Below are positions 15,071 through 35,033 of a stretch of 64,000 nt of DNA, one piece after another. Each line of letters opens with the position of its first letter. Within the stretch, counting starts at the first letter, position 1. The DNA lies in the NCBI RefSeq assembly GCF_006440675.2, contig NZ_CP083951.1, forward strand, positions 6,171,501 through 6,235,500, given 5' to 3'. A program made the translations under genes and the position numbers. Source of the stretch: Mesorhizobium sp. B2-8-5. Its GTDB lineage: Bacteria; Pseudomonadota; Alphaproteobacteria; Rhizobiales; Rhizobiaceae. Below the pieces are notes generated by a model. It did not search any database. It was not told the DNA's origin and saw only the letters and a list, made by a program, of their open reading frames with translations.

Positions 15071-15175
15071 TTTCACTTTCCCATCGCTTCTCACGACGTC
15101 TCACCGACCAATACAAATCAATAACTTAGCCTAGTTTGGCGGTTTATGGTGACCCACCGCGTACCGTTGCAACGC

Positions 15176-15232
15176 ATCGGTTTGTGGGTAACGATTTAGG
15201 CGTTACCCACAAACCGATAGGTCCGTTACCCA
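15176..15232. promoter_or_regulatory. Inverted and direct repeats at the integrase start
   Basis: Perfect 18-bp arms, 15176-15193 and 15201-15218, with a 7-nt loop, contain the word TGTGGGTAA and its complement. A third half-site, CGTTACCCA, lies at 15224-15232 and its last base is the A of the integrase ATG. The same word, as TTACCCACA, recurs at 34949-34957 near the right end. It could be an operator or an arm-type integrase binding site. Confidence 0.55.
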
Positions 15233-16419
15233 TGTCTCTCTCCGACTTCGCCTGCAAGAACGCTAAGCCCAAAGACAAGCCGTATCGTCTTGCCGATGGC
15301 GACGGGCTCTATCTCCTCGTCCGGAACAACGGGTCCAAACTCTGGCAACTGCGGTACCGCTACCTGGAGAAGGAAAATATCCTCTCCTTTGGAAAATACC
15401 CGCTGGTGTCACTTCTCGATGCGAGAGGACGGCGCGACGACGCCAAGAGGCTGTTGAGCGCCGGCATCAACCCGTCCACCAAACGCAAAGAGGAGAAGGC
15501 TGCCGCCATCACGGAAGCACGCACCACCTTCGCCTTGGTCGCCGAGGAATATGTCACGCGGATGGAGGAACGGGACGCTGCGGCGGCTACCATCACCAAA
15601 ACCAAATGGCTCCTGGAAGATCTGGCCGGCCCACTCGCCAAGCGCCCCATTAACGAGATCACTCCAGCCGAAATTTTCCTACTCCTCCAGAAGATCGAAA
15701 AGAGTGGTCGAAGAGAGACAGCGCGGCGTTTACGCGGCGTGATAGGCAGCGTCTTCCGCTTGGCCATTGTCACGTTACGGGCAGAGTCTGACCCAACCCT
15801 ACACCTCCGGGGCGCTCTCCAGCCGCCGAAAGTCAACGGTCGTGCCGCTATCACCGATGAAAAGAAGTTCGGCAAGCTCCTGATGACGGTCGACGAATAC
15901 GACGGCTGGCCAACCATCAAAGCCGCCCTCCAGTTTCTTGCCCTCACCTGTGTCCGTCCCGGCGAAGTACGGGGCGCTACGCGCGACGAGTTCGACCGAA
16001 AGAAGGCCGTCTGGCATATTCCGGCCGAGCGCATGAAGATGCGTGCTCCACACGACGTGCCACTGTCCAAACAGGCGCTTTCGGTCTTGGAAGAGGTCTG
16101 GCAGCTCTCAGAGGACGGCGGCCTGCTCTTTCCTTCGATCCGCTCCACAAAACGGCCGCTTTCCGAGAACGCCATGAATGCTGCGCTACGACGTATGGGC
16201 TACGGAAAGGACGAAGTGACCGCACATGGTTTCCGGGTGACCGCCAGCACCATCCTCAACGCCCGCGACTACGATCCAGACGTGATTGAAGCTGTCCTGG
16301 CGCACCAGGACAAGAACGCCATCCGGCGGACCTACAACCGAGCGACCTATTGGGAGCAGCGGGTCACACTAATGCAGGAGTGGGGAGATCTGCTAGACGC
16401 GTTGAAGGCGAAGCATTAG
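15232..16419 (+). CDS. Tyrosine-type site-specific integrase (P4 family)
   Basis: A 395-residue recombinase from the ATG at 15232; the frame extends to 15136 through the repeat region, which is rejected. It has the N-terminal DUF4102-like domain of P4-type integrases (LSDFACKNAKPKDKPYRLADGDGLYLLV), a central SAM-like domain, and the C-terminal catalytic domain with Arg242 (TCVRPGEVRGA), His332-x-x-Arg335 (AHGFR), His358 and the nucleophile Tyr368 (RRTYNRA). It would catalyse integration and excision at tRNA-Phe, located 161 bases upstream. All catalytic residues are present, so it looks functional. Confidence 0.95.
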   Translation: MSLSDFACKNAKPKDKPYRLADGDGLYLLVRNNGSKLWQLRYRYLEKENILSFGKYPLVSLLDARGRRDDAKRLLSAGINPSTKRKEEKAAAITEARTTFALVAEEYVTRMEERDAAAATITKTKWLLEDLAGPLAKRPINEITPAEIFLLLQKIEKSGRRETARRLRGVIGSVFRLAIVTLRAESDPTLHLRGALQPPKVNGRAAITDEKKFGKLLMTVDEYDGWPTIKAALQFLALTCVRPGEVRGATRDEFDRKKAVWHIPAERMKMRAPHDVPLSKQALSVLEEVWQLSEDGGLLFPSIRSTKRPLSENAMNAALRRMGYGKDEVTAHGFRVTASTILNARDYDPDVIEAVLAHQDKNAIRRTYNRATYWEQRVTLMQEWGDLLDALKAKH

Positions 16420-16497
16420 TCTTAAACGCATTCCACGATCGGATCGCTGTTTTCCGTGTGGGCGTTGATCGCTGCCCGATATGGGTAGTTGAGCCGT

Positions 16498-17061
16498 TCA
16501 CCCGTGCGCCTCCAAGGCCGCGACGAGCTTGGTTGCTTCTTCCCGATGCCGCGCCACATCCGCGCGGGTAGCAGCCCGGTTTAACCCGTGGGCCGGTAGA
16601 TCGCCAGCAATCGCCTTCAGGTCGCGCAGAACGGACGCGATGTGCGGCCATGGAAAATCCGTCGGGTCGCCAATGTCCCGGTCGGCGCCAACAATCATTT
16701 CCAGTTTTGCCACGATACCCACGAGAGACTGGGCCGCGACACTGGGAATCGCATCCTGAAATCGGAGTGCCTCGGTCATCGCAAACACCTCGGCCTCGCG
16801 AACCACCGCATATTCCGATCCCTCCTCCGACGCGGCCGCCGAAGTTCCACGCGTTTGCTGATCTCCATCGGTCAATACCGGAATTCCGGGATTGACCATC
16901 ATCCGCGTCTCCAATCGCTGCTGCACCCGACACAGGACCAGCGACACGTGCCGAGCGCGGTGCCAGTCGGTCCACAGGCTCAAAGCGGGATCATTTGTAT
17001 TCTGAGTGGCAGCCGCCCGGGTGATGGGCTCAGAGAACGTGGGTGTGGTCCTTGGCAGCAT
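16498..17061 (-). CDS. Hypothetical protein divergent from an XRE regulator
   Basis: A 187-residue protein I do not recognise. The ATG at 17061 follows a strong AGGAGG site, so it is preferred over the upstream frame start at 17088. The protein is soluble and rich in Ala and Arg, with a region of predicted helix near the C-terminus (DVARHREEATKLVAALEAHG). It is transcribed away from the XRE gene at 17157; the two share a ~95-base control region. It could be a target or partner of that regulator. Confidence 0.65.
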   Translation of the reverse strand: MLPRTTPTFSEPITRAAATQNTNDPALSLWTDWHRARHVSLVLCRVQQRLETRMMVNPGIPVLTDGDQQTRGTSAAASEEGSEYAVVREAEVFAMTEALRFQDAIPSVAAQSLVGIVAKLEMIVGADRDIGDPTDFPWPHIASVLRDLKAIAGDLPAHGLNRAATRADVARHREEATKLVAALEAHG

Positions 17062-17085
17062 CGAACACCTCCTAACCAATTCCGG

Positions 17086-17152
17086 CACATTCGACTGTTC
17101 CGAAAATACATACTATAGTTGATAAACTTAAAGTGTGTAAACGGCGAATGTG
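17086..17152. promoter_or_regulatory. Possible operator between divergent genes
   Basis: CACATTCG (17086-17093) and its inverse CGAATGTG (17145-17152) flank an AT-rich stretch that contains the perfect palindrome ACTATAGT (17112-17119). The position, between a hypothetical gene and an XRE regulator, suits binding by that regulator. Confidence 0.35.
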
Positions 17153-17156
17153 GCGC

Positions 17157-17375
17157 ATGGATATGCGTCAACTGGTCGGAAGGAACTTTGCCCGACTTCG
17201 GAGGGAGAAAGGCCTGACGCAGGAGCAGGTGGAAGCCCGGTCGGGCTACAGCCAGCAATACCTAAGCAGTCTGGAACGTGGTCGACGCAATCCTACTGTC
17301 ATCACCCTTTTCGAGCTCTCCCAGGCGTTGGGTGTAAGCCACATCGAACTAGTAAAACCGGTAGAAGACGGCTAG
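17157..17375 (+). CDS. XRE-family helix-turn-helix regulator
   Basis: About 72 residues from the ATG at 17157 (MDMRQLVGRNFARLRREKGLTQEQVEARSG...). The whole protein is one HTH_3 domain: the recognition pattern LTQEQVEARSGYSQQYLSSLERGRRNPTVITLFELSQALGV is canonical. An in-frame GTG at 17133 would add eight residues. It probably controls its own promoter and the divergent gene at 16498-17061, and perhaps the integrase. Confidence 0.85.
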   Translation: MDMRQLVGRNFARLRREKGLTQEQVEARSGYSQQYLSSLERGRRNPTVITLFELSQALGVSHIELVKPVEDG

Positions 17376-17927
17376 CGCTGTTTAGCGTGTCGGCCATCAA
17401 TCGCCTGCGCGCAGCCGCTCGCGAGCACACGCCCAAGCAGCACCGTGGCGAGCGGCACAGCATGCGTCGCTTTCGGCTCATCTTGGTTGGCGCAATAGAG
17501 ATGTGCGATCCCGAAACCGGCTTGCTTCCTCATTCCGAACAGCGGCTTCGCGCCTTAATTCAGCCTTTGAATCCGGCCGTGTTCCAACTTGAATGCAGAC
17601 CTGACTACCGTAAATCCAAATACTGATGACCGACCACCGCATCACCTACTCGATGGGCCGGCGTGCAACATCAGCGACAATGCCGTAACCAAGCCTCTTT
17701 TCATCACTCAAGACCGAACGACAGTTCGCGAGGTCTATGGGACGGAGATGGCGGCACGGATGTGTTCGATCACGTCGCGCGGCCATACAATACTCGGCGG
17801 GGGCACTTGGTGTAGAGCTATCTCGGCCCTTGGAAAATGTTTGTGGATTACTGCTCTTTACCACGCCGATCAAGTTGACAAAGCTTTATTGTGGCTTCCA
17901 ATATCCTTCGGGCTGGGCAGAACGGGG
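17376..17927. other. 550-base stretch with no convincing gene
   Basis: Open frames here lack ribosome sites or family motifs. A 54-codon frame at 17462-17626 and the N-terminal extension of the downstream lipoprotein frame cover much of it. Neither has coding character that I can support. The AT content is visibly higher than in the core genome. Confidence 0.5.
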
Positions 17928-18893
17928 ATGGCTGTGGGGCGTCTAACTCTATTTTTTCTCTGCGTGGCGGTTGCTGGCTGCCACACTACACCAGTGATCG
18001 AGAACGTTACGGGTTTTACTGCGACGGATATCCAACGTAAGGCCCGCTGCGAGCTCCGCGATGCTATTGAAGACAAAGTCGCGGCTTGGTTTGCATCGCA
18101 CTCCCTCAAGGATGACGCGTACGCTCAAAGCCAGGCGCCGCTCTTGAAAGACGACCTGATATCGCTCGCGAACGTAGACTTTAAGAAACTTCTACCCACT
18201 ACGAGGAGTTACCTTAACTACGTCATGGGCGCGGCTGTTGCTTACGACTTTGACCTCAATATCACTGAGACGAATGATGTCGACTTGTCGATGGACGTGT
18301 TGGGAGCCGTAACAGGCAACAAGATCAAATTGGGCATCGGAGCTGGCGTCGATCGGATGCGCCGCCATGAGCAGGCATTTTATCTAGTAGAGACTTTCGA
18401 CCATCTGACGCGCCAAGTGGATTTTGCTTACTGCGATCCCGAGCAGAAGAGGAAAAAGAATCCCCATTTCTTCAACGAGAGGCCGGATCCGTTGTATCCG
18501 ATTGCAGGGCTAATAGGCCTAAAGAAGCCACTGGACGAGTTTGTCGACCTGTCGCTATTCAGCCCATTCGGGGCAAACGACAAGACCAAACCGCCGACCC
18601 TTGCTTCAACTTTGGAGTTCACTACAAAAGTATACGGGAACTTGACGCCTGGTATTGTCGCTGAGCCAAACCTAACCGACTCGTCGGTTGCGTCCAAGAA
18701 TAGCCGAGAAGATGTGCATAAGATAACGCTCGGTTTCTCAATTGAAAACCCGCCGTCACTTGATGTGGCAGAGAATACCGGGAAATTCGTTGTCTCTCAA
18801 GGAACGAAGGCGGAAAAGGCTGCTGCTGGTGCTGCTAGCAATTTTATTCTGCGAACAGAATTCAACAGACCGACGGTGATAATCGATCGGTGA
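17928..18893 (+). CDS. Lipoprotein of unknown function, island cargo
   Basis: A 321-residue protein from the ATG at 17928. Its N-terminus (MAVGRLTLFFLCVAVAGC) is a clear lipoprotein signal with Cys18 lipidated; a frame start at 17589 would bury this signal and is rejected. The mature protein is soluble and acidic, has a helical first half (DIQRKARCELRDAIEDKVAAWFASHSLKDDAY) and later regions that look beta-rich, ending in LRTEFNRPTVIID. I do not recognise the family. It is followed 19 bases on by a small Lys-rich protein gene and is probably co-transcribed with it. Confidence 0.72.
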   Translation: MAVGRLTLFFLCVAVAGCHTTPVIENVTGFTATDIQRKARCELRDAIEDKVAAWFASHSLKDDAYAQSQAPLLKDDLISLANVDFKKLLPTTRSYLNYVMGAAVAYDFDLNITETNDVDLSMDVLGAVTGNKIKLGIGAGVDRMRRHEQAFYLVETFDHLTRQVDFAYCDPEQKRKKNPHFFNERPDPLYPIAGLIGLKKPLDEFVDLSLFSPFGANDKTKPPTLASTLEFTTKVYGNLTPGIVAEPNLTDSSVASKNSREDVHKITLGFSIENPPSLDVAENTGKFVVSQGTKAEKAAAGAASNFILRTEFNRPTVIIDR

Positions 18894-18912
18894 CGCGGAG
18901 AGGAAATTTATC

Positions 18913-19251
18913 ATGCCGCAAACAAAAACTGGAAGTGGCAAGGGCAAAATCGCCAAGGCGAAGACAACAAAGGCCGCAACGGCTAAGTCTGCCGAACCGA
19001 AGAGGTCGCCGCCAAAAGATTTCGTAGTACCGGTTAGCGGGTTCATTGATGCGGTTTTGGACTCCGCGTATCGCCGCAACGTCGACGAAATCAAGCGCCT
19101 GTATCAGGGGGTTAACATAACCGTCAGCGAGCAAATAGGCATCGAGACGCTTGTCCTACTTGGCAAGCTGCCACGTGCGCCTAAGACGATAGCGTTCAGA
19201 ACCTCGCTCGCTGCGACGCCTTGCGATGACTACGGGTGCACAAGAGCATAG
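18913..19251 (+). CDS. Lys/Ala-rich small protein, unknown function
   Basis: A 112-residue protein. The first ~37 residues are low complexity and basic (TKTGSGKGKIAKAKTTKAATAKSAEPKRSPPK), resembling histone H1-like tails. The second part (DFVVPVSGFIDAVLDSAYRRNVDEIKRLYQGVNITVSEQIGIETLVLLGKLP) looks like a folded helical domain. It lies 19 bases after the lipoprotein gene and is preceded by GAGAGGAAA as ribosome site. The basic tail could bind nucleic acid or another protein; no function can be given. Confidence 0.65.
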   Translation: MPQTKTGSGKGKIAKAKTTKAATAKSAEPKRSPPKDFVVPVSGFIDAVLDSAYRRNVDEIKRLYQGVNITVSEQIGIETLVLLGKLPRAPKTIAFRTSLAATPCDDYGCTRA

Positions 19252-19468
19252 GAGGGTTTGCCTTAACTGAGGGAACGTTAAGGCTAGTTCGTTCTGAACT
19301 CAGCTCTACCCCTGATAGGAGACATTGGGCGGCAAGTTCGTATGCCACGTTCGCGCCCACCTAACCCTCTGCCGGCCTCCATGGCTGTTGTCAGCTTTCG
19401 CCACGCTTCGGAGGGCTGCAGCCGCTAGCGTCGCGACGGCGGCGAGAAATTCATCACCGTCGGTGCGA

Positions 19469-20995
19469 CTACACTGATTTGTATCTTGCCCGATATGCAT
19501 CCAGATAATCCGCATCCTGGCAGATACAGCGCTCCAGACGATCCTTTGCTCTGCGCTCCGTAATCACGTCAGAGGGCATTTTGCGGAGCAAGTTAAGCTT
19601 CGCGGTTGTCCAGCTGGGAGCATCCCTGAGGGCGGCGCGTTTGACGATTTCTGCGGCGAGCATGATGCCTGCCATCGCCGACTGGAAGGCCATCGGGACC
19701 TCTACACGTACCGGTTTACCGCCCCCGGTTAGCTCGAAAACCACCCCTCCACAAATTGCAGCCTGATAGAGGCCTCGCAGCGGCTGGCCAACAAACGGCA
19801 GTAGCGGCTCAAGAGGCACCATCAGGCGGCTTGCGATCTCCCGCATCAATTCCACGCTGACGGGGGCGCCACTGTGTAGCATGGGCCGCACGACGTCCAT
19901 TTTCCGGTCCTCGAGGCTAAGTGCCTGAGCAATGACCTGGTCTTCATCCGGAACGGATCCAGTAGGTAAATAGAGGCACGCGAGGCAGGCCAGTTCGCCA
20001 TCTAGGTTATGATGCGACACGCCAAGATCCCCCCGTTGCGTCCAGCTGTTGATGGTCCATCGAGGCAGGGCAGCCTGTACCGCGATGCGGTCAGCCGCCG
20101 TATCCAGCGCGATCGCGACGTGCTGCAGCGAGTGTGACCCCGCTAGGGACTGCCATTTGTAAGGGTGATCCTGGAGCGACAACCCACGTTGAGACGTCAG
20201 GTGACGACGGGCAAGCTTTACCTTGCTGCCGCCGATGTCCTTCTCCAATGCCAACACGTAGCGCTGCAGATTGCTTTGGTCGACCTCCTCGTCGTCGACA
20301 AGCCCCAACTGCCCCTGGAGGCCGGATACCCGCGCAAGGGCCCATACAGCGCCATTGCCGATTGCTCCTAATCCCAGCAGGAAGATGGTTTCGAGGACCG
20401 TGTTCGTCTCAAGCGGCGGGTTAGCATCGGATCCGGGGGCGTAGTCAAACAATGAGAACGAGACTGCGCTGTCCACCGTCGCCCCGCTGATCTGCTCGTT
20501 AAATATCAAGCGGAATAAATTTGATGCTGCGATACACGACGCAGCACCTGCGCCGAAACTGTTGCTACTACAGCCGGAGCCAACCGGCTGTACGGTGGAG
20601 AATTTCGCTAGCCAGCCGTCAGACCCCAAGAACATCCGAGAGCAAGCTACATCCGGAGCCGTCGAGCCGACAATGAGGCACTGCGAGAGCGCCGCCAGGC
20701 GCGGCCGGACTATATCGATCTGTCCGTTTATGGAGCGCGCCAACGAGCTGAGGCTACGCGCCAACTTCGTCGCCTCGTCGCCCTCCGGCAGAAAGCAGAT
20801 ATTGGGGTAAAGCCGGGCTACCAGCCGGACCAGAAGATCAAGCGACGCCCTGCCCTCGCTGGAGCAGGCCGTTTCGTCAAAGGCAATTCCGATCACCAGC
20901 CCGTTGAGTAGCTGCTCGAAATTCTTTGTCTGGAACCCCTGTAGCACTTGCGAGGCCGCGGTTGCGGCACGGCCGAAATAGGTTGCGAGCGCCAT
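19469..20995 (-). CDS. E1-like ubiquitin-activating protein (ThiF/MoeB fold)
   Basis: A 508-residue protein in the ubiquitin-like operon. The C-terminal ~300 residues are an E1/ThiF adenylating domain: nucleotide motif LGLGAIGNGA (207-216), acidic pair VDDEEVD (233-239) with SNLQR (241-245), which binds ATP and the Ubl C-terminus in the family, and CxxC at 337/340 followed by Cys residues near the C-terminus that may bind zinc. The N-terminal ~200 residues are a separate domain, unlike ThiF itself, as in E1 proteins of bacterial Ub-like operons. It should adenylate the C-terminal Gly of the Ubl encoded at 22104-22409. It is the last gene of the operon, starting 6 bases after the JAB stop. Confidence 0.85.
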   Translation of the reverse strand: MALATYFGRAATAASQVLQGFQTKNFEQLLNGLVIGIAFDETACSSEGRASLDLLVRLVARLYPNICFLPEGDEATKLARSLSSLARSINGQIDIVRPRLAALSQCLIVGSTAPDVACSRMFLGSDGWLAKFSTVQPVGSGCSSNSFGAGAASCIAASNLFRLIFNEQISGATVDSAVSFSLFDYAPGSDANPPLETNTVLETIFLLGLGAIGNGAVWALARVSGLQGQLGLVDDEEVDQSNLQRYVLALEKDIGGSKVKLARRHLTSQRGLSLQDHPYKWQSLAGSHSLQHVAIALDTAADRIAVQAALPRWTINSWTQRGDLGVSHHNLDGELACLACLYLPTGSVPDEDQVIAQALSLEDRKMDVVRPMLHSGAPVSVELMREIASRLMVPLEPLLPFVGQPLRGLYQAAICGGVVFELTGGGKPVRVEVPMAFQSAMAGIMLAAEIVKRAALRDAPSWTTAKLNLLRKMPSDVITERRAKDRLERCICQDADYLDAYRARYKSV

Positions 20996-21001
20996 GGTAG
21001 C

Positions 21002-21643
21002 TCAATCCACGATTTCAATGAGACGACTAACATCCTCGGCAGGAACGGGGAGCCAGTTCCCGGCGCCGTTAAGCCGATAGACCACAGTCTGGGACAAATC
21101 TGCCGGCCCTCTCGCGAAGTCCGGAACGACCAGGGAAAGTGAGCCGGCCGTCGTTGCTAACGCATTATCGTCGTCGGTGTCCGAGTGGTATGCATCCGTG
21201 GGGTGGCTGTGAATCTGCGCAAGTATGCGTAGACCATTATCGAAGAGCCAAACGTTGATACGGTGCAACTCAGCCCCGTCGACAAGCACGCCGACACCAG
21301 CAGGGCCACGAATGAGCCTCTGCTCGGGAATGAGTGCTCGTTCCACTGTGGCTGTGCCCGCTCGTATGCGACCGACCCAAAGGCCCAGTCCCTCGTATCC
21401 GGACCGCCCTACCTCGACTAGATGCGCGTGCACATCATCGAATACAGCCCGGGGGACAATGAATTTCTCGGCAGTGGCAAGGCTGCTCCTTACCTTGGAA
21501 AGGCTGCCGGGTTGTGCTGGAACCCCGCGAAGGCGATCTGAATCTGGTAATTGGCCGCTTGGATCGGGTTGATTCCGCTGGCCCAGATTTGCTCGAGAAT
21601 AAAGTGTAAGGAGCCTTCTCCAGAGCGACGATGCAAAAGCCAT
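21002..21643 (-). CDS. JAB/MPN metallopeptidase (deubiquitinase-like)
   Basis: A 213-residue frame with a complete JAMM motif: Glu84 (GYEGLGLW), His145-Ser-His147-Pro, Ser154 and Asp157 (HSHPTDAYHSDTDDD), which bind the catalytic zinc. The domain starts near residue 60 (EKFIVPRAVFDDVHAHL). The start is unresolved: the only ATG is at 21643, 154 bases inside the preceding gene in another frame, and no ATG, GTG or TTG occurs in frame until inside the domain. Prokaryotic JAB proteins cut Ubl proteins from targets or trim Ubl precursors. Here the Ubl already ends in Gly, so a de-conjugating role is more likely. Confidence 0.87.
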   Translation of the reverse strand: MAFASSLWRRLLTLYSRANLGQRNQPDPSGQLPDSDRLRGVPAQPGSLSKVRSSLATAEKFIVPRAVFDDVHAHLVEVGRSGYEGLGLWVGRIRAGTATVERALIPEQRLIRGPAGVGVLVDGAELHRINVWLFDNGLRILAQIHSHPTDAYHSDTDDDNALATTAGSLSLVVPDFARGPADLSQTVVYRLNGAGNWLPVPAEDVSRLIEIVD

Positions 21644-22107
21644 GAGTCACCTGTATGGGCCGGGTGGTCGTGATATTCGCGTACCCCGGGCAAGCAAAGG
21701 AAAGGGACATCGTCAGGGTCGTGTGCCTGAAGCAAAGATTGAGCCGGCAGGCGTTGTTGCTGCGCTAGAGCGGTTATCGTTTCAGGCGAGGCATTTTCGA
21801 CGCCGTTCAAACGGAGCATCTGGAAGCCCAAGCTCTTGAATGGCAGTTCCGCGCCGGTACCAGGATCTACGAATTTCACCGACGGGGGGACAAGGTCGTA
21901 GTTGGTAAAATCCAATCGCACTGCGCAAACCAGTGCCGGGGGCTTAACTTTAAGGGCGGCGAACAATACGACTACCGTCGGAAAGTCGGCCTCAACAAGG
22001 AACCAGCCTCGCCGACGATATATATGGTCAAGCTTTCGGTACTGCGCGACTTCGCGGTCAAACTTACGTCTAGAAACCGACTCGTCAACGAACTGACCTT
22101 CGATCAA
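21490..22107 (-). CDS. E2-like/Metal_CEHH domain protein of Ub-like operon
   Basis: A 205-residue protein encoded between the Ubl and the JAB peptidase, with ATGA overlap to the Ubl gene. The C-terminal part holds Cys138, Glu144, His146, His148 and His151 (FLCLPGVREYHDHPAHTGDSW), which fits the predicted metal-binding CEHH pattern described for proteins in bacterial Ub-like operons and often treated as an E2 equivalent. The N-terminal half has beta strands and the hydrophobic segment TVVVLFAALKVKPPALVCAVRLDF, compatible with an RWD/E2-like fold. Its role as acceptor of activated Ubl is inferred. The single Cys138 near the His cluster is the residue to test. Confidence 0.72.
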   Translation of the reverse strand: MIEGQFVDESVSRRKFDREVAQYRKLDHIYRRRGWFLVEADFPTVVVLFAALKVKPPALVCAVRLDFTNYDLVPPSVKFVDPGTGAELPFKSLGFQMLRLNGVENASPETITALAQQQRLPAQSLLQAHDPDDVPFLCLPGVREYHDHPAHTGDSWLLHRRSGEGSLHFILEQIWASGINPIQAANYQIQIAFAGFQHNPAAFPR

Positions 22108-22409
22108 CCTGCTGCCCCGGCCTTGAGGCTCAGAAACAACTTCTGACCCTCAATGATCCCAAGGTCCTCGATTTTCTTGCTTGCATCTAGGACAACTCCT
22201 GCCTCGTCCTTCAGCTCCCAGTTCTCCGGCGGCTGGCCGACGTTCCCGGAATCAGCTAGCGCCTTAGCGATAACTGTATGCAACGGCGAATTGACATTGG
22301 CTTCCACAGCCACTGGCTCACCATTGACAACGATAGTCAGAGTTATTTTTTGTTTGGGGCCGGCCGTCGGCGCCGCTGTTTCAGGTGAACTTTTCGGAGA
22401 CTTTGCCAT
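22104..22409 (-). CDS. Ubiquitin-like protein (DUF2604-type beta-grasp)
   Basis: A 101-residue protein. Residues ~21-97 look like one ubiquitin fold: strand KITLTIVVNGEPVAVEAN, helix PLHTVIAKALADSG, then WELKDEAGVVLDASKKIEDLGI and the closing strand EGQKLFLSLKAG. The pattern is that of the DUF2604 bacterial Ubl family. The protein ends in A-G-A-A-G, a single C-terminal Gly with no extension, so it seems ready for activation without processing. The first 20 residues are a flexible, Lys/Ser/Pro-rich tail. It is first in an operon with E2-like, JAB and E1 genes. Confidence 0.82.
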   Translation of the reverse strand: MAKSPKSSPETAAPTAGPKQKITLTIVVNGEPVAVEANVNSPLHTVIAKALADSGNVGQPPENWELKDEAGVVLDASKKIEDLGIIEGQKLFLSLKAGAAG

Positions 22410-22465
22410 ATTCTAACCGTCCATGTTAAGTTTCCTCTACTACTATCACGGTGCCTACTCTGGGC

Positions 22466-23044
22466 CTACGGTAAACTTTCGTTTCCTCCGTCAATCCACG
22501 CTTTGCGTATGTCCGCTTGGGCCAGAAGCTGCTCCGGCGTGAATAGGGTCTGAACGGCCGGGGTCGGACGCTGAACGGCAGCTTTTTGCGGAACAAAGCC
22601 GATACCTGACGGTCCGCTGACGGCCCTATTCCTGCCAGTCAGCAAGGCGCCCAATTGCCGCCATTCAGCCCAGTGGCCAGCGACCCCGAAAGCTGTCGCT
22701 TGTTCCAATTCAACATTCGGAGACGGTGAGGCGGGATCCCAGTCCGGCCAGAAGACAGAATCAAACTTGCCGTCGACCGCTGAAAAGCCATCGCAATACT
22801 CCTCCAAGAAAACTTTTGACCCGAGCTGTTCCATGAGGATCATCCGCAGGTGCGCGTGATGGATGAGCTTGCCGAGCCACGCGCATTCGGCCTCTTGATG
22901 GCTTTTGCTGCCGCCAAGGCGGCGGCTGGCATCGTCACACCGCCGCTGCTGCCGCCCCGGCAGGCGTCGATCTGGTTGCGCTTGACCTGCTAGGCTTGGG
23001 ACGCGCCACGAGCCTGGGCGGCTGCAGGGTGATCGGCGGATCAC
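22466..23044 (-). CDS. Hypothetical protein bridging the two modules
   Basis: A 192-residue frame from GTG 23044. The C-terminal ~140 residues look coding (EAECAWLGKLIHHAHLRMILMEQLG... through a Pro-rich stretch to FTPEQLLAQADIRKAWIDGG); no family is recognised. The first ~50 residues are Arg/Pro-rich and look like a wrong frame. The neighbouring frame from 23056 gives a more natural start (MEAGDPPITLQPPRLVARPKP) but stops, so a frameshift near 22940 or a later internal start is possible. It lies 18 bases after the preceding gene and 56 bases before the Ubl gene, so it links the defence-like module to the Ub-like operon. Confidence 0.55.
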   Translation of the reverse strand: MIRRSPCSRPGSWRVPSLAGQAQPDRRLPGRQQRRCDDASRRLGGSKSHQEAECAWLGKLIHHAHLRMILMEQLGSKVFLEEYCDGFSAVDGKFDSVFWPDWDPASPSPNVELEQATAFGVAGHWAEWRQLGALLTGRNRAVSGPSGIGFVPQKAAVQRPTPAVQTLFTPEQLLAQADIRKAWIDGGNESLP

Positions 23045-23062
23045 CGGCCTCCATCCTCATCG

Positions 23063-23908
23063 TTAGAGATGCTCGCCGATATGCCCGATAAGCGTCCTGC
23101 CTTTGAACTCGGCATGCTCCGCACTCGAGAAATAGATACGATGGAAATAATATTCGGTGTCACCGGCACGGGCTGAACAATGAAGTTTGATATGGGGCTC
23201 GCACAGGATCCGGATTGTGCCGTCCTTGCCCGCAAACTGAAAGGTCAGCGCTTCCTTGCGGTCCGCGTCCCCCTCCATCGAGGTCTCGTAGCCCGACATC
23301 GCGGTGAACGCCTTCATGCACGCCTGCGTGGTCGGCTGCTCCATGCACTTCGGCATGTCGTCGGCAAGCGATACTAGCGCGGACACGATCACCGCGACGA
23401 AGTCGTTCAGATCTCCCTTAAAGGTGCCGAGACAGTCGGGGAAACGCTTGCTGAAAATGAAATTCGGGAACGCCAGGCGGCATTCCAGCAAAAAGCCGTC
23501 GCGATCGCCTTGATACGCCTTGAGCTGCTCGCGCATCACCGCGATCCATCGGTCGAGGTCGTTGACGCTCCGCGCCCCCTCTTCCGCCCAGGGTCCAAGC
23601 TCGCCGACGGCGCCCCGCGCCTCAAGCTCGGCCAATGTTGTCGACACGGTCCTGTCGATTGCGAGCTGGAGGAGCCGCTGCATGTCCCGGCCGATACCTT
23701 CGGGGCTTTCGAAGAGGATCTGGTAAAGAGCGATGCCCGGAAGGACCTCTGCATAGTAGAGGCCTTCGTCCTTGTGGATCGCATACCCGGCTTCGCGCAG
23801 CTCATCGTCGAGCACGAGCAGCGCCTCGAAACGCCCGATCAACGACTCAAGCGTCGCACCCGATGGCGGCTCATATCGTCCGAGGCTGTGGATGAGGCTC
23901 GCCGGCAT
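23063..23908 (-). CDS. Hypothetical protein, third gene of DUF262/ATPase module
   Basis: A 281-residue soluble, acidic protein without a motif I know. It has a helical N-terminal half (LESLIGRFEALLVLDDELREAGYAIHKDEG; GIGRDMQRLLQLAIDRTVSTTLAELEARG) and a beta-rich C-terminus that ends in strands with several His and Arg residues (IRILCEPHIKLHCSARAGDTEYYFHRIYFSS). It starts 9 bases after the ATPase stop, so the three genes are one transcript. By position it could be an effector or adaptor of the ATPase; nothing in the sequence proves either. Confidence 0.7.
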   Translation of the reverse strand: MPASLIHSLGRYEPPSGATLESLIGRFEALLVLDDELREAGYAIHKDEGLYYAEVLPGIALYQILFESPEGIGRDMQRLLQLAIDRTVSTTLAELEARGAVGELGPWAEEGARSVNDLDRWIAVMREQLKAYQGDRDGFLLECRLAFPNFIFSKRFPDCLGTFKGDLNDFVAVIVSALVSLADDMPKCMEQPTTQACMKAFTAMSGYETSMEGDADRKEALTFQFAGKDGTIRILCEPHIKLHCSARAGDTEYYFHRIYFSSAEHAEFKGRTLIGHIGEHL

Positions 23909-23917
23909 GCCGATCAG

Positions 23918-25090
23918 TCACACCTTGGCCTGTGCGGCCAGGGCTCGGCGTGCCTTCATCATCTCGGCCAGGTCGGCACCCTGCTGATCGAAGAAGCCGG
24001 GCGGCCAGCTCGTGAGCTCGGCCGCCTTGTCCATCGTGATCGGGTGGAGGATGGGCTGTCCCGGGCCCTCGCCGAGCGACAGGAACAGGAAACTCGCATC
24101 ATCATGTGGGATGATGTCCCGCAGCACGGCCAGGCGGACACCGTTCAGGACATTCTCGCTATGGGTCTCGACGAGGACCTGTACGCCTGCCGAGGCCACC
24201 GAGGCGAGGAAAATCCCGATTGCGGTCTGAGCGCCGGGATGGAGATGGGCCTCCGGGTTTTCGACGATGAGCATCGATCCTGGAGCCGCGAGCAGCCCAC
24301 TCACCACCACCGGCAAGGCATAGCTGATTCCGAAGCCCGTATTGGCCGGGGGAAGCGCTTTCGCCGTCGCGCCCCGCCGGCCGATCGCCATTTGCACGCG
24401 ATTGAGATCGGGATGAGGCGTTGTGAAAATCTGTGCTCCCGGCACCAGCCGCCCCATCCAAGCCTCAAGCTGGACTCGGAAGAGCTTGGAATCAGCCTCG
24501 ATGCACAAGGCTTGCGCCACCATGCGGCTCTCTGCCTCCGCCTGTGAGATCGCGAAGGCCGTGAACTCGCCCGCATAGCCGGTGGAGATGAAGAGCTGGT
24601 CGGCCATCGGCTGCAGGTCACGCGGACCGACCCGCTCGGCGACGAGGTAATGGAATTCCTGCTGGAAGATGGGAAACGCGCCCACACGCTCGAGTAGGTC
24701 CTCCGGCGCCTCGACGCAGGCGATGCTCGTCGTCGGCTTTTTGGTGCTCGCCTCGAAGCTGCACATGACGCGGTCGGTACCATCGCCGGACACCCCCAGA
24801 ACAACCATGTCGGATTCGATATCCGCGTTCGTGAGCGTGGCGCTGTTGCCCAGACTTAGCCGATAGTTGTCATTGAGCTTGATGCTAAAAAGCGGATGCC
24901 CCCCATCGGTGCGGCTGACCGCCCCCGCCAGTAGACGGGCCTGGTCGCCGGTCTGACGGAGGAGCAGGAGCGCCTGAATCACGCTCGACTTGCCGACACC
25001 GTTTCCGCCGCTCAGCACGGTAAGCCGCTTGAGTGGGATTTGCTCTTGCTGGAAGCATTTGAAATTGGTCAGGTGGACGTCGCAGATCAT
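23918..25090 (-). CDS. AAA-family ATPase with DUF3696-type C-terminus (OLD/RecF-like)
   Basis: A 390-residue ABC/SMC-class ATPase. Walker A is GGNGVGKS (28-35) after the RecF-like start MICDVHLTNFKCFQQEQIPLKRLTVLSG. The Walker B-like LIVENPEAHLHPGAQ lies near residue 275, followed by ETHSENVLNG, and the C-terminal W-x-x-G-F-F-D-Q-Q motif is that of DUF3696 proteins. No TOPRIM nuclease domain is visible, unlike OLD or GajA. Such ATPases pair with nucleases in several phage-defence systems. Its start overlaps the DUF262 stop (ATGA), which means strict stoichiometric coupling with that protein. Confidence 0.88.
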   Translation of the reverse strand: MICDVHLTNFKCFQQEQIPLKRLTVLSGGNGVGKSSVIQALLLLRQTGDQARLLAGAVSRTDGGHPLFSIKLNDNYRLSLGNSATLTNADIESDMVVLGVSGDGTDRVMCSFEASTKKPTTSIACVEAPEDLLERVGAFPIFQQEFHYLVAERVGPRDLQPMADQLFISTGYAGEFTAFAISQAEAESRMVAQALCIEADSKLFRVQLEAWMGRLVPGAQIFTTPHPDLNRVQMAIGRRGATAKALPPANTGFGISYALPVVVSGLLAAPGSMLIVENPEAHLHPGAQTAIGIFLASVASAGVQVLVETHSENVLNGVRLAVLRDIIPHDDASFLFLSLGEGPGQPILHPITMDKAAELTSWPPGFFDQQGADLAEMMKARRALAAQAKV

Positions 25091-26460
25091 CCCATATGCT
25101 CCGCGCAGAGGGTTCGTGCCTTTTCGAATGCGTAGAGCAACCGACGCCGATCGTTGGTGCCGAACGAGACACTGTCATAATAATTGGCGTCCCTGTCGAG
25201 TTCGTGAGCAACGATCTCGGCAAAACTCCCGGGCTTGACCGCCTGAACCTCCTTCTCGTCCCGTTCCGCTAGGACCACCGACCAAGTCGTGAACAGCGAG
25301 TTGTTCATCAGCCTGCGCCTGGCGCCCGGGAGAAGGTCGTGCGGACCGCATTTCCGGAAGGCGAAGGCGCCGAAGAGGTGTGCGCTGTTGCGCATGCCGC
25401 GCTCAAAGGCGGGGACCAGTTGGTCGAACGAACCCGGATTCCGGTTGAGCGTCTCGATCGTCTGGTCAAGGAAGCGCTCCATATTGCCCGCATATGGCGA
25501 CTGATACTCAAGGTTCGCCAGCCGGAACGCCGCGAAGCGAAGCGCGATCTCCTGGTCCTGCATGCGAACGGTGCCCACGCTCGAGCATGTTGCCTCCAGA
25601 AACTCGGGTGACCGGGACAGGCTGTGCAGGAGATGCCGTGTCTCCGGCGACGACATGCAGTTGCGGATTTCCTGGGCGTTGAGCGGCCGGCCGCCCTGGT
25701 TGATGCGTTTGAAGATGTCGAACTTCACGTCCACCGGCGTCTGAGCGTCGATGATGTTCATCATGATCTGCGTCTGCATGATCCGCTTGCGGTAACGCTG
25801 GTCGATGCAGCGGTTCGGATCGTCATGTCGGAAGACCTTACCCTCCTCGTCCTTAAGATATTCCAGGTCGCGCAAGCGCAGTTTGTTGTCGAGGAATTGC
25901 TCGATGACGGTAAGGCGCTGCAGCCCATCGACCACCTGCAGGCGTCCGTCGTAATCCTGGGCGAGGTAGAAGACTGGCAGCGGAATGCGCAGCATTATCG
26001 ATTCGATGAGCCGCGACCGCGCGCCGACATCAGTCCACACAAATTGGCGCTGGAAATCGGGCGACAGGTTGATGTCGCCGTCCTTGATCATGTCGTAGAC
26101 TAGGCTGATGTTGAAAGGCTTCGTGTCGACCCGGATGAACTCCGGATCGTAGGGGAAGGGCTCGGGCGAGCCGTCTGCCGATTCCTCAGTGACCTCTATG
26201 CCCGCAGCCTCTTGGATCGAACGCTCCGCGAGCGCCTGTATGAAGGCTTCGCTGATCTCGTCCGGGGTCGATCCGATATCTCCGGACATTTCGACGCCCA
26301 CGATCTGGCCGGCTTCCGTTGTGGTGATTGTAAGTTCATGCGAAACGTCTTCTGCGGTCCAACGGCACAGCCCGTCGGGCTGCGACTGGTCCAGCCGCAG
26401 AGCGACAGATGCTCGCTCTCCCGACGCGAGGCGGATGGGGATTTGCAAGGTGCGCTCCAA
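25087..26460 (-). CDS. DUF262 (ParB/Srx-like) protein, putative nuclease
   Basis: A 457-residue protein. Residues 1-110 are a separate beta-rich N-terminal domain. The DUF262 signature follows: PDFQRQFVW (134-142), ESIMLRIPLPVFYL, and VDGLQRL (177-183), where the family norm is DGQQR, so the first Gln is Leu. FKRINQGGRPLNAQEIRN comes next. No DUF1524/HNH motif is seen in the C-terminal region, so it is not a complete GmrSD-type enzyme. DUF262 proteins use nucleotide hydrolysis to drive DNA cleavage in modification-dependent and phosphorothioate-sensing systems. It is the first gene of the module; a mobile element lies 50 bases upstream. Confidence 0.87.
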   Translation of the reverse strand: MERTLQIPIRLASGERASVALRLDQSQPDGLCRWTAEDVSHELTITTTEAGQIVGVEMSGDIGSTPDEISEAFIQALAERSIQEAAGIEVTEESADGSPEPFPYDPEFIRVDTKPFNISLVYDMIKDGDINLSPDFQRQFVWTDVGARSRLIESIMLRIPLPVFYLAQDYDGRLQVVDGLQRLTVIEQFLDNKLRLRDLEYLKDEEGKVFRHDDPNRCIDQRYRKRIMQTQIMMNIIDAQTPVDVKFDIFKRINQGGRPLNAQEIRNCMSSPETRHLLHSLSRSPEFLEATCSSVGTVRMQDQEIALRFAAFRLANLEYQSPYAGNMERFLDQTIETLNRNPGSFDQLVPAFERGMRNSAHLFGAFAFRKCGPHDLLPGARRRLMNNSLFTTWSVVLAERDEKEVQAVKPGSFAEIVAHELDRDANYYDSVSFGTNDRRRLLYAFEKARTLCAEHMG

Positions 26461-26515
26461 TAATGGTTCCGACAGACATATATCGGCAGCTTCCGAAACA
26501 ATCTACCGCCCTCCT

Positions 26516-26534
26516 GGGTAGTGTCTCAGTTTGA
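26516..26534 (+). repeat. Left terminal inverted repeat of the 3.6 kb element
   Basis: GGGTAGTGTCTCAGTTTGA, identical to the complement of 30101-30119. It is preceded by CCTCCT. Confidence 0.82.
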
Positions 26535-26560
26535 AACTTGACGCGCTCTCGGTTTCCCCT

Positions 26561-26848
26561 TCAATTCAAGATGGAACGCAGCGTTAGATAAATTCCATAG
26601 GCGCTTGCGCCAAAGCACGTGGCGGCAAGGATGAGAAAAAGGCTCGTGTCGCGCCGCGAGGTGGATGGCTCCTTACGCGCCAGCAACACCATCTTAGCCG
26701 ACAAGGCCATAAGTAATACGGCCATAACAAACATCGCGATATAGATGCTCTTCGGATAAATGGGCCGCAGGAGAATGCCTGTTATGGCAACCGACAGGTT
26801 GGCCGCAATGAGCGCTTTATAGCGCCCCGGCAGCCGATGATCATTCAT
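26561..26848 (-). CDS. Small membrane protein, passenger gene
   Basis: A 95-residue protein from the ATG at 26848 with three hydrophobic helices (ALIAANLSVAITGILL; IYIAMFVMAVLLMALSAKMVLLA; LFLILAATCFGASAYGIYL). No family is recognised. The frame extends upstream into the transposase remnant, which is why the internal ATG is chosen. It lies between the left end of the element and the transposase remnant on the same strand. Confidence 0.6.
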   Translation of the reverse strand: MNDHRLPGRYKALIAANLSVAITGILLRPIYPKSIYIAMFVMAVLLMALSAKMVLLARKEPSTSRRDTSLFLILAATCFGASAYGIYLTLRSILN

Positions 26849-26864
26849 TCCGATACCTGCTTTT

Positions 26865-27716
26865 CTAAGGACCGCGCTTTCCCGGCTTTGGCGCAACGGC
26901 GTCCATCTTCTCGCAAAGATGGTCCATCGCTGCGACATGCCAGCGGCCATTGCCGGCGTCATTTTCAGCGTCTTGTGCATTTTGATGAAGTTGTACCAGA
27001 CAGTGTAGATCGCGACCATGTGGACATGGCTTTCGAACTTCTTTGAGAAAGCATTGGTAAGACGCGTGAAGGCGTCGGTTCGCCATGCGCATCGTGAGAT
27101 TGGCGCGCTCGATATGCGACGTGCTCGTGCATAGGATCGGGATTGCCTTCAATCCGCGTCTTGGTCGCACCAGTGCAAACGGACGGGCTGAAGCGGCGCT
27201 CTGGCGACTTGTTGATCTCCGGCTCGCCATACTGATGAGCATCGCGTAATCGATATCCGCTCCGAAGGCTTCCTCAACCGCATTGAGATAGGCGCGGTGG
27301 CAGTCTGTCGTAAGCTGGACGCGGTTTGCAAGCCGATCCTTCACATCGTCCATGAAGGCTAGCGCATATTCGCCATCGCGGCCGCCGACCAGCCAGGAAA
27401 TGATAAGCTTGCTGTCGCTGTCCAAAGCGGTCCACGTCCACACGTCGCCAGCGCCTTCAACCGGCTGCTTCATGGCCGACACGTTCTTCCCCTTCGCGCC
27501 CGACGAATGACCAGATTTCATCGCATTGAACGCGCTTGGAAGCTACATTGCGAACTTCGCGGTCATGCAGATCGGCGCAGAACTTGCCGGCATCGACAAG
27601 CAGCTTCGAAACCGTGTTGATCGACACGTCGGCAACGCGCGAGCTCGAGCGCATCGAAGAACCCTCGCAAAGCATGGCGAGGATTTGGACGCGGGTCTGA
27701 AGAGGCAGCTGTTCAT
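26865..27716 (-). pseudogene. IS1-family-type transposase, multiply frameshifted
   Basis: Pieces of one DDE transposase of about 280 residues appear in order in different frames: LPLQTRVQILAMLCEGSSM, VADVSINTVSKLLVDAG, VQCDEIWSFVG, then the DVWTWTALDSDSKLIISWLVGGRDGEYA region, CTGATKTR, STSHIERANLTMRMANRRF, VHMVAIYTVWYNFIKMHKTL and TPAMAAG. At least four frame changes are needed, including one next to the ATG at 27716. The gene is inactive. The product resembles the rhizobial proteins usually labelled IS1 family transposase. Confidence 0.87.
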
Positions 27717-27761
27717 GCCCCTAATAGGTGAACTTTTATGCTTAGTGCCAAGGATAAAGGT

Positions 27762-28829
27762 TCAGCTAACGATTCGGAATCGCGGTGTGCTTACGAGGCC
27801 GAAAAAGTCTTGGAATGTTTCAGTGGGGAGGCCGGTAAGCGTGGAAAGGTCGTCAAGAGTGTAATTCAGGTGTCCCATATGCGCGCGGACCAGTTGGTAG
27901 ATCAGTTTCGGACTTTCACGCGCTTCAATGTCGACAGGTTCCTTAGTTCGCCAGCCACGCTTGGACATATTGATCATGTAGTATCGGTGAGCGCTCTCGC
28001 TCAGCCGGCCAATGTCCCGCGCCTTCAACATGAGGGCAGCCATTGAGGTCTTCCAGTATTTTTTGAGCGCCATAAATTTCTCAAGAGAGAGGCTGTAGAA
28101 GTCCTTGGCGATGTCGGCTGTTGGCATGAGGAATTCACCAGCAAATAGATTAGCCTGCCTCTCCATTTCCGGATTTGGGATTTTATGCATCACCAGATGT
28201 CCAAGTTCATGAGCCAGGGAATATCTCAGCCTGTCCTTTGGCTGCCGTGTGTTGATGAACACGACAGGGGGCATTCCTTCAGAAGCACTTTGACAGAAGC
28301 CGTCACAGAGTTCCGTCCCGAAGTCGAAGGGGACGACGACAATGCCGGCACTCTCCATGAGTGTTGTTACGTCTTCGACTGGGCCGCGCGGCATCGACCA
28401 TGCCTGGCGCACGGCGCGGGCAATGTCGTCAACTCTGCCGCCAACTTCATCGGGGTCGATATAAGGAGGGTTCGCTCTGCTCGGCGCCAATTCTACAGAG
28501 CGAAGGAAGATGGAAGTGGTAATTCGATAGATTTCAGCTTTGGCATAAATTTTCGCCCAATCGGCCTTGGTGAGCTTCTGCCGTTTTCGATGGTAGGTCG
28601 CCGGTTCTGCTCGCCTTAAATGCGGATGGAAAAAGAACTCGCGCTTATAACCGAGCGCCAACGCCAGCGCGTCGATATCCTCGTTGGTCGGCTGGATGAG
28701 ACCGTTCTCAATCTTCGACAATTTGCCTTGCGACATCGGCTCCGCAAGGCGATCGATCAAATCGCCTTGCGTGAATCCCTTCGACTCTCGCGCCAGTGCG
28801 AGCATTTCTGGGTTGAATGTCTTCGCCAT
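27762..28829 (-). CDS. XRE regulator fused to ImmA/IrrE metallopeptidase
   Basis: A 355-residue protein from the ATG at 28829. Residues 1-65 form an HTH (FNPEMLALARESKGFTQGDLIDRLAEPMSQGKLSKIENG...), and the second part is an ImmA/IrrE peptidase with the zinc motif His207-Glu-Leu-Gly-His211. These fusions sense a signal and cleave or regulate a partner repressor; related proteins control mobile elements and toxin-antitoxin pairs. It begins one base after the stop of the gene at 28831-29427, so that protein is the likely partner. A frame extension upstream to 28925 lies inside that gene and is rejected. Confidence 0.9.
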   Translation of the reverse strand: MAKTFNPEMLALARESKGFTQGDLIDRLAEPMSQGKLSKIENGLIQPTNEDIDALALALGYKREFFFHPHLRRAEPATYHRKRQKLTKADWAKIYAKAEIYRITTSIFLRSVELAPSRANPPYIDPDEVGGRVDDIARAVRQAWSMPRGPVEDVTTLMESAGIVVVPFDFGTELCDGFCQSASEGMPPVVFINTRQPKDRLRYSLAHELGHLVMHKIPNPEMERQANLFAGEFLMPTADIAKDFYSLSLEKFMALKKYWKTSMAALMLKARDIGRLSESAHRYYMINMSKRGWRTKEPVDIEARESPKLIYQLVRAHMGHLNYTLDDLSTLTGLPTETFQDFFGLVSTPRFRIVS

Positions 28830-28830
28830 T

Positions 28831-29427
28831 TCAAGTCTCGGAGGTGTCCGGCTTTGCGTCCGGTATAACCCGAATAAGATCGTCGCCATGATCATTTGGC
28901 GCAGGACCGCGACCGATTTCGGCATCGGCGGCGGCTGCCGGCGGTTCCAATTCCATCCGCCAATGATAGCCGTCTGCCTTCGGGCAGATCACATAAACGA
29001 AAGGTTCGTCGGGAGTGATGGAATTGGGGACGTAGCTCAAATAGAGATTCGTAGTCTCATCCAGCTCCTCGGGGGAAAAAAGCGTCGAAACCCCATTTTC
29101 CTGAAAACCCAAAGAAATCTGATTGCGGTTCAACCCCACCGCACCATCCTGATTGGCCATTTTGGCAAGTAAGCGAAATTCACCGATATTGAAATAAGTG
29201 GTCTGGTTTCTATCCTTGATAGACACTTCTGGATCGAGCATGAGGTTGGCGCGCAGGTTGTCAACGATGTGATCCCGCACAATACTGCGCCTCGTTGTCT
29301 TCCGATGAATGTGGCCAGTCGTCCGATAATCGTTCAGGCCGGCACGGACGCCGTCGCGAGCGGCACTATACAAAACCGGCAAAAACCGTTCCAGCTTTTG
29401 GCGACTGTAGGCTTCATCACGCGGCAT
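28831..29427 (-). CDS. Hypothetical partner of the XRE-ImmA protein
   Basis: A 198-residue protein, not recognised. It starts with a charged helical region (AYSRQKLERFLPVLYSAARDGVRAGLNDY), continues with basic residues (HIHRKTTRRSIVRDHIVDNLRANLMLD) and ends in an acidic, Pro-rich tail. Its stop is one base from the XRE-ImmA start, a spacing typical of regulator-substrate or toxin-antitoxin pairs. A regulatory partnership is inferred from this coupling alone. Confidence 0.68.
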   Translation of the reverse strand: MPRDEAYSRQKLERFLPVLYSAARDGVRAGLNDYRTTGHIHRKTTRRSIVRDHIVDNLRANLMLDPEVSIKDRNQTTYFNIGEFRLLAKMANQDGAVGLNRNQISLGFQENGVSTLFSPEELDETTNLYLSYVPNSITPDEPFVYVICPKADGYHWRMELEPPAAAADAEIGRGPAPNDHGDDLIRVIPDAKPDTSET

Positions 29428-29500
29428 CGCGGTGTCCCTTGATTCGATGCATGGGACCGTACAGAAAATCCTATCAAAAGAGAAGCAAAATATTCCGAGT

Positions 29501-29739
29501 TTATTTTTCCTTGGTATTCCAACGGCTTGCAGCCGCCTTCCGCGCGATCTCGGCGCGCCGCTCTGGCGTCATGTTAGCGGCGCGCTTCTGCCACCCTTCG
29601 AACCAAGCTCTTTGGCGGCGGCGCTCTTGCCATCGTCGTGCACGTCCTCGGCTTCGTCGCCGGTGGCAATGCGCATGACGCGTACGGAGTTGCCGATCGC
29701 GTCGGCGGGGCGCTTCTGGCCTTTAGGTCCGGGAGGCAT
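29501..29739 (-). pseudogene. Small conserved-type protein broken by one frameshift
   Basis: From the ATG at 29739 the frame reads MPPGPKGQKRPADAIGNSV... and continues to KELGSKGGRSAPLT before a stop at about position 56. A shift by one base near 29585 restores NMTPERRAEIARKAAASRWNTKEK, the usual end of this small rhizobial family. It begins directly after the stop of the gene at 29740. A sequencing error or a real single-base indel both fit. Confidence 0.6.
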
Positions 29740-30030
29740 TCAGACCTCCTGCCATGAATATCCAGTGGTGACGCCAAGGTGGAAGACGCGTCCACTACGA
29801 AGGTTTACGTATGCCGCGTTCCCATCACGTGGGTGTAGATATCGCCGGAGAAACTTCCTCATTCGCCTCCAGCCTATCTTTTTGGTGGGCGCAAAGACTA
29901 TCGTTGTCCGGGGCGTCATCTCTCGATAAACCCCAAGCCTTTGTAGCCGCTTGAGAAGCTTGGTGGAGTCTCGATTGGGAACCGCATTGTCCCATGTGAT
30001 TAACCATCGCCATTCTCGATCGGCCGACAT
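29740..30030 (-). CDS. Small basic protein with a Cas2/ferredoxin-like secondary structure pattern
   Basis: A 96-residue protein from the second of two adjacent ATG codons, at 30030, which has AGGAG at 5-base spacing. A GTG at 30114 is inside the terminal inverted repeat and is rejected. The pattern is strand WRWLITWD, helix STKLLKRLQRLGV, strand TTIVFAPT, helix GWRRMRKFLRRYL, strand AAYVNLRSGRVFHLG. That is the beta-alpha-beta-beta-alpha-beta order of the ferredoxin-like fold seen in Cas2 and VapD. No cas genes are nearby. This likeness is structural inference by eye only. Confidence 0.55.
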   Translation of the reverse strand: MSADREWRWLITWDNAVPNRDSTKLLKRLQRLGVYREMTPRTTIVFAPTKKIGWRRMRKFLRRYLHPRDGNAAYVNLRSGRVFHLGVTTGYSWQEV

Positions 30031-30100
30031 CATCGCTCCTATGCTTTCCGCTAAGCATATAGGCGTTTTCGCCCATGCGGGTAAACCGAGATAGGCGCTC

Positions 30101-30926: not shown

Positions 30927-30927
30927 G

Positions 30928-35018: not shown

Positions 35019-35033
35019 TCCCCCCTTGGTCCG

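Follow-up and report, generated by a model that had tools for sequence, protein, structure and literature searches.

A Bil-type ubiquitin-like conjugation operon of Mesorhizobium sp. B2-8-5 with a candidate bilC start nested out of frame in bilB

The window analyzed here is a stretch of 64,000 nucleotides of Mesorhizobium sp. B2-8-5 (contig NZ_CP083951.1, positions 6,171,501 to 6,235,500). Its positions 19469-22409 hold, on the minus strand, an operon of four genes, bilA, bilB, bilC and bilD, encoding, in this order, a ubiquitin-like (Ubl) modifier, an E2-like conjugating enzyme, a JAB deconjugase and an E1 enzyme. We consider it highly probable, judging from sequence comparison, that this is an antiphage operon of the Bil (bacterial ISG15-like) kind, in which BilC would be translated from an ATG nested out of frame in bilB. 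The most informative feature of the operon is the 154-base overlap of bilB and bilC, as both the nested ATG and the open bilC frame behind it are conserved in alphaproteobacterial bilB genes.

An earlier reading of the window, made from its letters alone (the sequence-only reading), had described a ubiquitin-like conjugation operon on a mobilizable island, and is partly supported by our analysis. All four co-directional open reading frames (ORFs), the extent of the bilB/bilC overlap and the spacing of 6 bases between bilC and bilD are as it stated, but the overlap, taken there for ordinary operon coupling, contains a conserved candidate start. The coupling of the Ubl and E2 genes, given there as ATGA, is actually TTGA, with the TTG start of bilB overlapping the stop of bilA.

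Conservation of the nested start and the overlapping frame

The compared loci (denoted L with a number) came from named genomes (80 loci), from a search of 146 genomes of the same genus (29 further loci) and from plasmid records. bilB was read in 110 loci, some genomes being represented twice, and 39 genes with less than 95% identity were retained as non-redundant. Among these, 31 are alphaproteobacterial, 27 of them from Hyphomicrobiales, and 8 are others, including L072, whose record name gives no class and which was placed with the non-alphaproteobacterial genes. Two rows were dropped, L070 (bilB and bilC not in reach) and L141 (bilB in two frames). The E1 tree was built by maximum likelihood, and a tree of BilB proteins built by the unweighted pair group method with arithmetic mean was used for counting changes.

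In all 27 Hyphomicrobiales genes the codon before an invariant Trp of BilB ends in A, which creates an out-of-frame ATG. The same holds for 30 of the 31 alphaproteobacterial genes, where this codon is TCA (20 genes), CCA (9), TTA (1) or, in L076, GCC, and A precedes the Trp in 101 of all 110 bilB genes. These codons are rare: TCA accounts for 7.6% of Ser codons and CCA for 14% of Pro codons, and in the rest of bilB they make up 29 of 194 TCN and 91 of 531 CCN codons, respectively. A possible explanation is that the nested ATG and the open frame are a by-product of constraint on BilB, codon usage and ancestry, with BilC starting near the JAB domain. BilB is indeed strongly conserved at this site (GD[S/P]W, SGEG), but we regard such a by-product as unlikely, since the rare codons are retained where BilB permits others, while before other Trp columns of bilB the A is found in only 1 of 12 and 3 of 17 cases. 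Moreover, in Rhizobium etli the residue before Trp has changed from Ser to Leu (codon TTA), and the nested ATG is retained.

The overlapping frame downstream of the ATG mostly encodes an [FL]WRR start of the BilC extension. A branch of 28 genes was defined by the A before Trp itself (the 30 of 39 genes having it, without L078 and L079); in it the codon before Trp is TCA in 20 genes, CCA in 7 and TTA in one. Within this branch, Ser located seven codons beyond the ATG codon is encoded by TCT in 25 of 26 genes, and both genes with Cys in its place use TGT, which preserves Trp in the other frame; this Trp is kept in 27 of 28 genes. As in the case of Ser to Leu in R. etli, the amino acid change in BilB thus leaves the overlapping-frame residue intact, contrary to what is expected of a by-product. 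A Glu codon in the overlap is GAA in 27 of 27 branch genes.

Upstream of the ATG there is a Shine-Dalgarno-like (SD-like) sequence. The Gly codon at its GGTGA is GGT in 24, GGC in 3, GGG in 3 and GGA in 1 of the 31 alphaproteobacterial genes, and in the 28-gene branch GGT occurs 24 times and GGC never, although GGC provides 48% of Gly codons.

Because the A before Trp served to define the branch, its presence in 28 of 28 genes and the zero changes at it within the branch follow by construction. Therefore the substitution test was repeated on sets chosen by taxonomy. At the ATG column there are no third-base changes in Hyphomicrobiales (median 7 and minimum 3 in 62 upstream four-fold columns), one change in alphaproteobacteria (median 8, minimum 4, 61 columns) and five in all 39 genes (median 11, minimum 7, 52 columns). 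No other four-fold column changes as rarely in any of the three sets (91 columns in Hyphomicrobiales), which again argues against a by-product. The Ser column is the second-lowest in Hyphomicrobiales (1 change) and in all 39 genes (6 changes), and the third-lowest in alphaproteobacteria (3 changes).

The bilC frame is open up to BilC in 30 of the 31 alphaproteobacterial genes, compared with 7.5 expected under synonymous shuffling with the E1 codon usage of each locus; the genes share ancestry, and the probabilities for single genes are not independent. In the non-alphaproteobacterial genes it is open in 1 of 8 (1.5 expected). Synonymous differences in the 28-gene branch amount to 0.402 in the first 22 codons of the overlap versus 0.514 upstream (p 0.0074), and no such drop is seen in the 11 comparison genes.

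The conserved bases might instead form an RNA or translation-coupling element regulating the short bilC start, with no coding role for the extension. Such an element could explain why the nested ATG and its SD-like GGTGA rank among the most conserved four-fold columns. We consider it very unlikely, as no conserved RNA fold was found at the nested start (-1.77 kcal, a value equalled or undercut by 103 of 200 shuffles of codon columns), the frame is open in nearly all alphaproteobacterial genes, and the short start is gone in the window clade (see below).

On the E1 tree the 28 branch genes lie on one side of a single branch (one change, support 85/69), although the label that sets these genes apart is again the trait itself; the clade containing the window operon has support of 100/100.

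Long and short starts of BilC

The conserved domain of BilC begins near residue 60 of the long form. In the window, the nested ATG at position 21643 is the only ATG, GTG or TTG ahead of the JAB domain, and up to residue 71 the frame offers no alternatives besides CTG20 and ATT62. In most relatives a second, short start overlaps the bilB stop by 4 bases: it is present in at least 99 of all 110 loci, L061 and L094 also having an ATG there, and in 24 of the 28 branch genes (ATG in 21, TTG in 2, GTG in 1). The branch genes lacking it are exactly the four of the window clade (L001, L140, L002 and L068), where bilB ends with TAA or TAG; two of these, L001 and L068, have no ATG, GTG or TTG ahead of the domain other than the nested ATG. 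The loss of the short start in these four loci speaks against a by-product, while its retention in the others, together with the variability of BilC between about residues 20 and 50, fits one.

The solved structures 8tyz/8tz0 (Bil) and 8tyx/8tyy (BilC-BilA) of the Protein Data Bank (PDB) presumably come from Ensifer aridi, which fits our locus L005, a contig of E. aridi LMR001. The bilB gene of L005 also carries the nested ATG, and the locus retains the short start as ATGA. The catalytic Glu is residue 33 of the short L005 BilC and residue 83 of the long one, and the PDB name "E33A" matches the short form.

Several observations weigh against translation from the nested ATG. The short start persists in most of the branch, and the E33A numbering implies that the extension is dispensable for the solved BilA-BilC complex. 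L076 lacks the nested ATG, and L061 has a stop within the BilC extension just upstream of its short start. L078 and L079, which the E1 tree places outside the branch, carry the A without the GGT or the WRR. In two window-clade loci, L002 and L140, there is an additional TTG about 20 codons further on, still within bilB, and for some window-clade proteins in the databases the start is called at about residue 58-63 (156 or 151 aa). Finally, the amphipathicity of the extension helix is not clearly above that of shuffled sequences.

Among 20 listed database proteins at least 60% identical to the window BilC, two have 213 residues, one has 194, and 17 have 156 or fewer. In six of six examined plasmid records BilC is annotated without the extension, and in three of them (R. 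etli, K102 and NGR234) it starts past the catalytic Glu.

Weighing these data, we think it likely that the end of alphaproteobacterial bilB is dual-coding: an ATG with its own ribosome-binding site would start a long BilC whose conserved [FL]WRR N-terminus would be under selection and may steer or restrain the deconjugase, most operons would make two forms and the window clade only the long one, and this extension would be missing both from the solved BilC and from the examined annotations.

Assignment of the operon to Bil

Profile searches agree with the families named in the sequence-only reading: bilA matches DUF2604 (2.9e-31), bilB Metal_CEHH (7e-73), bilC Prok-JAB (1.1e-5, barely over the cut-off with 25.8 versus 25 bits), and bilD Prok-E2_C (8.1e-35) and ThiF (1.2e-12). 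These matches and the layout of the genes are well beyond chance.

In a search against all solved structures, the best relatives are 8tyz_A for BilD (3.5e-143, full length), 8tyz_C for BilB (1.3e-55, full length), 8tyz_B for BilA (3e-26, residues 16-101) and 8tyx_B for BilC (6.3e-43, JAB domain). PADLOC models recognize BilC (8.5e-17) and BilD (1e-17), while the BilB match is weak (21 bits) and BilA has none. Catalytic residues, whose roles in E1 and E2 are described in excerpts of PMC11354881, are kept throughout. In particular, Cys415 of the E1, which has an inactive and an active adenylation domain, is aligned with C417 of 8tyz_A, the CEHH-motif residues of the E2 (C138, E144, H146 and H151) are preserved in the alignment to 8tyz_C, and the JAMM residues (E84, H145, H147, S154 and D157), including all the zinc ligands reported earlier, are invariant among 52 aligned sequences. 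BilA ends in AG, so that the C-terminal Gly noted in the sequence-only reading is present.

With a Bil chain as the best solved relative of every protein and with its catalytic residues preserved, the operon is assigned to Bil, a known kind of system. The tandem (ISG15-like) Ubl domains are absent, BilA being a single domain; we do not take them as defining Bil, because the solved 8tyz_B, named BilA, also has 100 aa. The sequence-only reading had left the choice between Bub (bacterial ubiquitination-like) and Bil; according to PMC13373217, the former exists as a distinct family that has regulators of its own. Given the closeness of all four proteins to Bil chains and the PADLOC matches, a Bub operon is hardly credible here, in a comparison that covered solved structures and PADLOC models but no Bub sequences.

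A type II cyclic-oligonucleotide-based antiphage signaling system (CBASS) was rejected both in the sequence-only reading and here, as no CD-NTase stands beside the E1/E2 and JAB genes: none was found with Pfam and PADLOC among the island ORFs scanned, many short ORFs lying outside the scan.

The E. aridi Bil has the same four proteins with the same catalytic residues, and its E1 is about 49% identical to that of the window. The Collimonas-type Bil, in the excerpts of its description, comprises the same four functions but has tandem Ubl domains in BilA instead of one. An operon of this make-up was tabulated in alphaproteobacteria by Iyer et al. as early as 2006 (row 6c with Mlot, Retl and RhNGR234 in the available part of PMC1779556), consisting, as in the window, of an E2+E1 fusion, a JAB protein and a predicted metal-binding protein. 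Among the loci of these type 6c organisms, those on R. etli p42a and on pNGR234a were re-read in the present analysis. The two-frame overlap is not mentioned in the passage on the 6c table, and the word "overlap" does not occur in the main text of PMC1779556. More generally, no mention of two-frame bilB/bilC was found in the searched literature, which left out the main Bil papers; this silence is weak evidence of novelty.

Proposed mode of action

BilD would activate BilA at its C-terminal Gly at the expense of ATP and load it on Cys415; BilA would then be transferred to Cys138 of BilB and further to lysines of the target protein. Activation by BilD and conjugation by BilB form the Bil scheme given in excerpts of PMC11354881 and PMC11364771. 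By analogy with the best-studied relative, the target may be the phage central tail fibre, its modification leading to defective released virions. It is to this fibre that the Collimonas Bil attaches its Ubl (PMC11364771, available in part), and the earlier statement that the targets of related operons are mostly undefined is outdated for Bil in general.

BilC would remove or recycle BilA. In the window clade Gly is the very last residue of BilA, which should therefore mature without BilC; most sister-clade genes encode one residue more, as does L005. Translation from the nested ATG would add about 50 residues to BilC with the conserved start of the extension. Most branch relatives, having both starts, could make two forms of BilC, and the window clade has lost the short start.

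Genomic island and neighboring genes

The operon lies on an island of about 21 kb in a tRNA-Phe gene (Table 1). The integrase and relaxase agree with the earlier description of the island as mobilizable; the scanned ORFs of the island showed no transfer apparatus. Of six relatives read beyond the tRNA, one (genome G048, locus L146) has an empty site, which gives the right edge: 12 bases after the tRNA match, its sequence matches window positions 36328-36533 at 80.8%. Another of the six, L145, has the initial bases of the integrase region in common with the window. When an att repeat was looked for directly, no second copy turned up (5 matches with at most 3 mismatches versus 3.6 expected).

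The genes adjoining the operon are Menshen-like and RmrA-like; here we take Nsn to be Menshen and Rmr to be RosmerTA (antitoxin family). The RmrA-like protein also matches models of CapP (2e-16) and CapH (0.0009), regulators of immune operons. Two island ORFs, 22466-23044 (192 aa) and 17589-18893 (434 aa), matched nothing in Pfam or PADLOC at E 0.01.

Table 1. Features of the Bil operon and of the island carrying it (window coordinates)
Feature	Position	Strand	Description
bilA	22104..22409	-	Ubl modifier, 101 aa, single domain, tail KAGAAG-stop, without extension past Gly
bilB	21490..22107	-	E2-like conjugating enzyme, 205 aa; TTG start at 22107; C138, E144, H146, H151
bilC	21002..21643	-	JAMM/JAB deconjugase, 213 aa; E84, H145, H147, S154, D157
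bilD	19469..20995	-	E1, 508 aa; adenylation domains: N inactive, C active; catalytic Cys415
Two-frame overlap	21490..21643	-	bilB C-terminus and bilC codons 1-51 (MAFASSLWRRLLTLYSRANL...)
Nested bilC start (candidate)	21641..21652	-	SD-like AGGTGA, spacer CTC, ATG; bases conserved
Island, approximate extent	15071..36327		in tRNA-Phe (14995-15070); ~21 kb
Tyrosine integrase	15136..16419	+	Phage_integrase 5.4e-22, Arm-DNA-bind_3 2.1e-24
nsnC, Menshen-like	23063-23908	-	PADLOC NsnC 8.7e-82
nsnB, Menshen-like	23918-25090	-	PADLOC NsnB 8.3e-97
nsnA, Menshen-like	25087-26460	-	PADLOC NsnA 4.5e-112
RmrA-like, XRE helix-turn-helix and IrrE/M78 metallopeptidase	27762..28925	-	RmrA 1.2e-57, Peptidase_M78 1.1e-18
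MobA/TraA-type relaxase-helicase	31428..34481	+	MobA_MobL 1e-72, AAA_30 2.9e-57

Distribution in the genus and other loci

The E1 of the window is present in a single copy in its genome. Among the 146 genomes of the genus, a Bil E1 (E <=1e-60) was found in 58, a few of the matches being partial, and nifB passed the cut-off in 100. nifB is present in 56 of 58 Bil-bearing genomes versus 44 of 88 others (Fisher p 3e-10, a value that overstates the association as the genomes are related). The two Bil genomes without nifB, that of the window and G111, both have a window-clade E1. In plasmid records, Bil of the sister clade is located near nifB/nifZ/nifT in S. numidicum and near nolL/nodB in Mesorhizobium 131-3-5. 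The distance between Bil and nifB is 53-429 kb in 18 of 19 hand-picked pairs from the same contig and 922 kb in the remaining one.

This travelling of the sister clade with nitrogen-fixation genes would agree with a conjugation system whose function is other than phage defence. We find that rather improbable for the window operon: its genome has no nifB match, and defence-like genes adjoin both this operon (Menshen-like and RmrA-like) and its R. etli relative. In the latter, on p42a, genes of TIR-domain and caspase-family proteins follow the Bil operon (L140, 12673-14031), possibly forming another defence module. On a Mesorhizobium plasmid, a multiubiquitin-domain protein and a ThiF-family gene (L150, 3625-5691) lie about 8 kb from Bil and constitute a second Ubl system.

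Some Bil loci look disrupted: in L141 (Rhizobium K102) bilB is in two frames, L094 has a partial match to bilC, and L008 has an unlike bilC end; in L061 the stop affects the BilC extension only. In viral contigs 26 stretches matched the pattern, with no Bil relative among them.

Implications

Among bacterial systems, Bil is one of those closest to eukaryotic ubiquitination. The records examined show that the annotation of BilC in rhizobial plasmids can be truncated. Constructs based on the short form miss a part of the deconjugase if BilC indeed has a hidden N-terminal region. If the proposed dual coding is true, the balance between attachment and removal of the modifier may depend on two isoforms of BilC.

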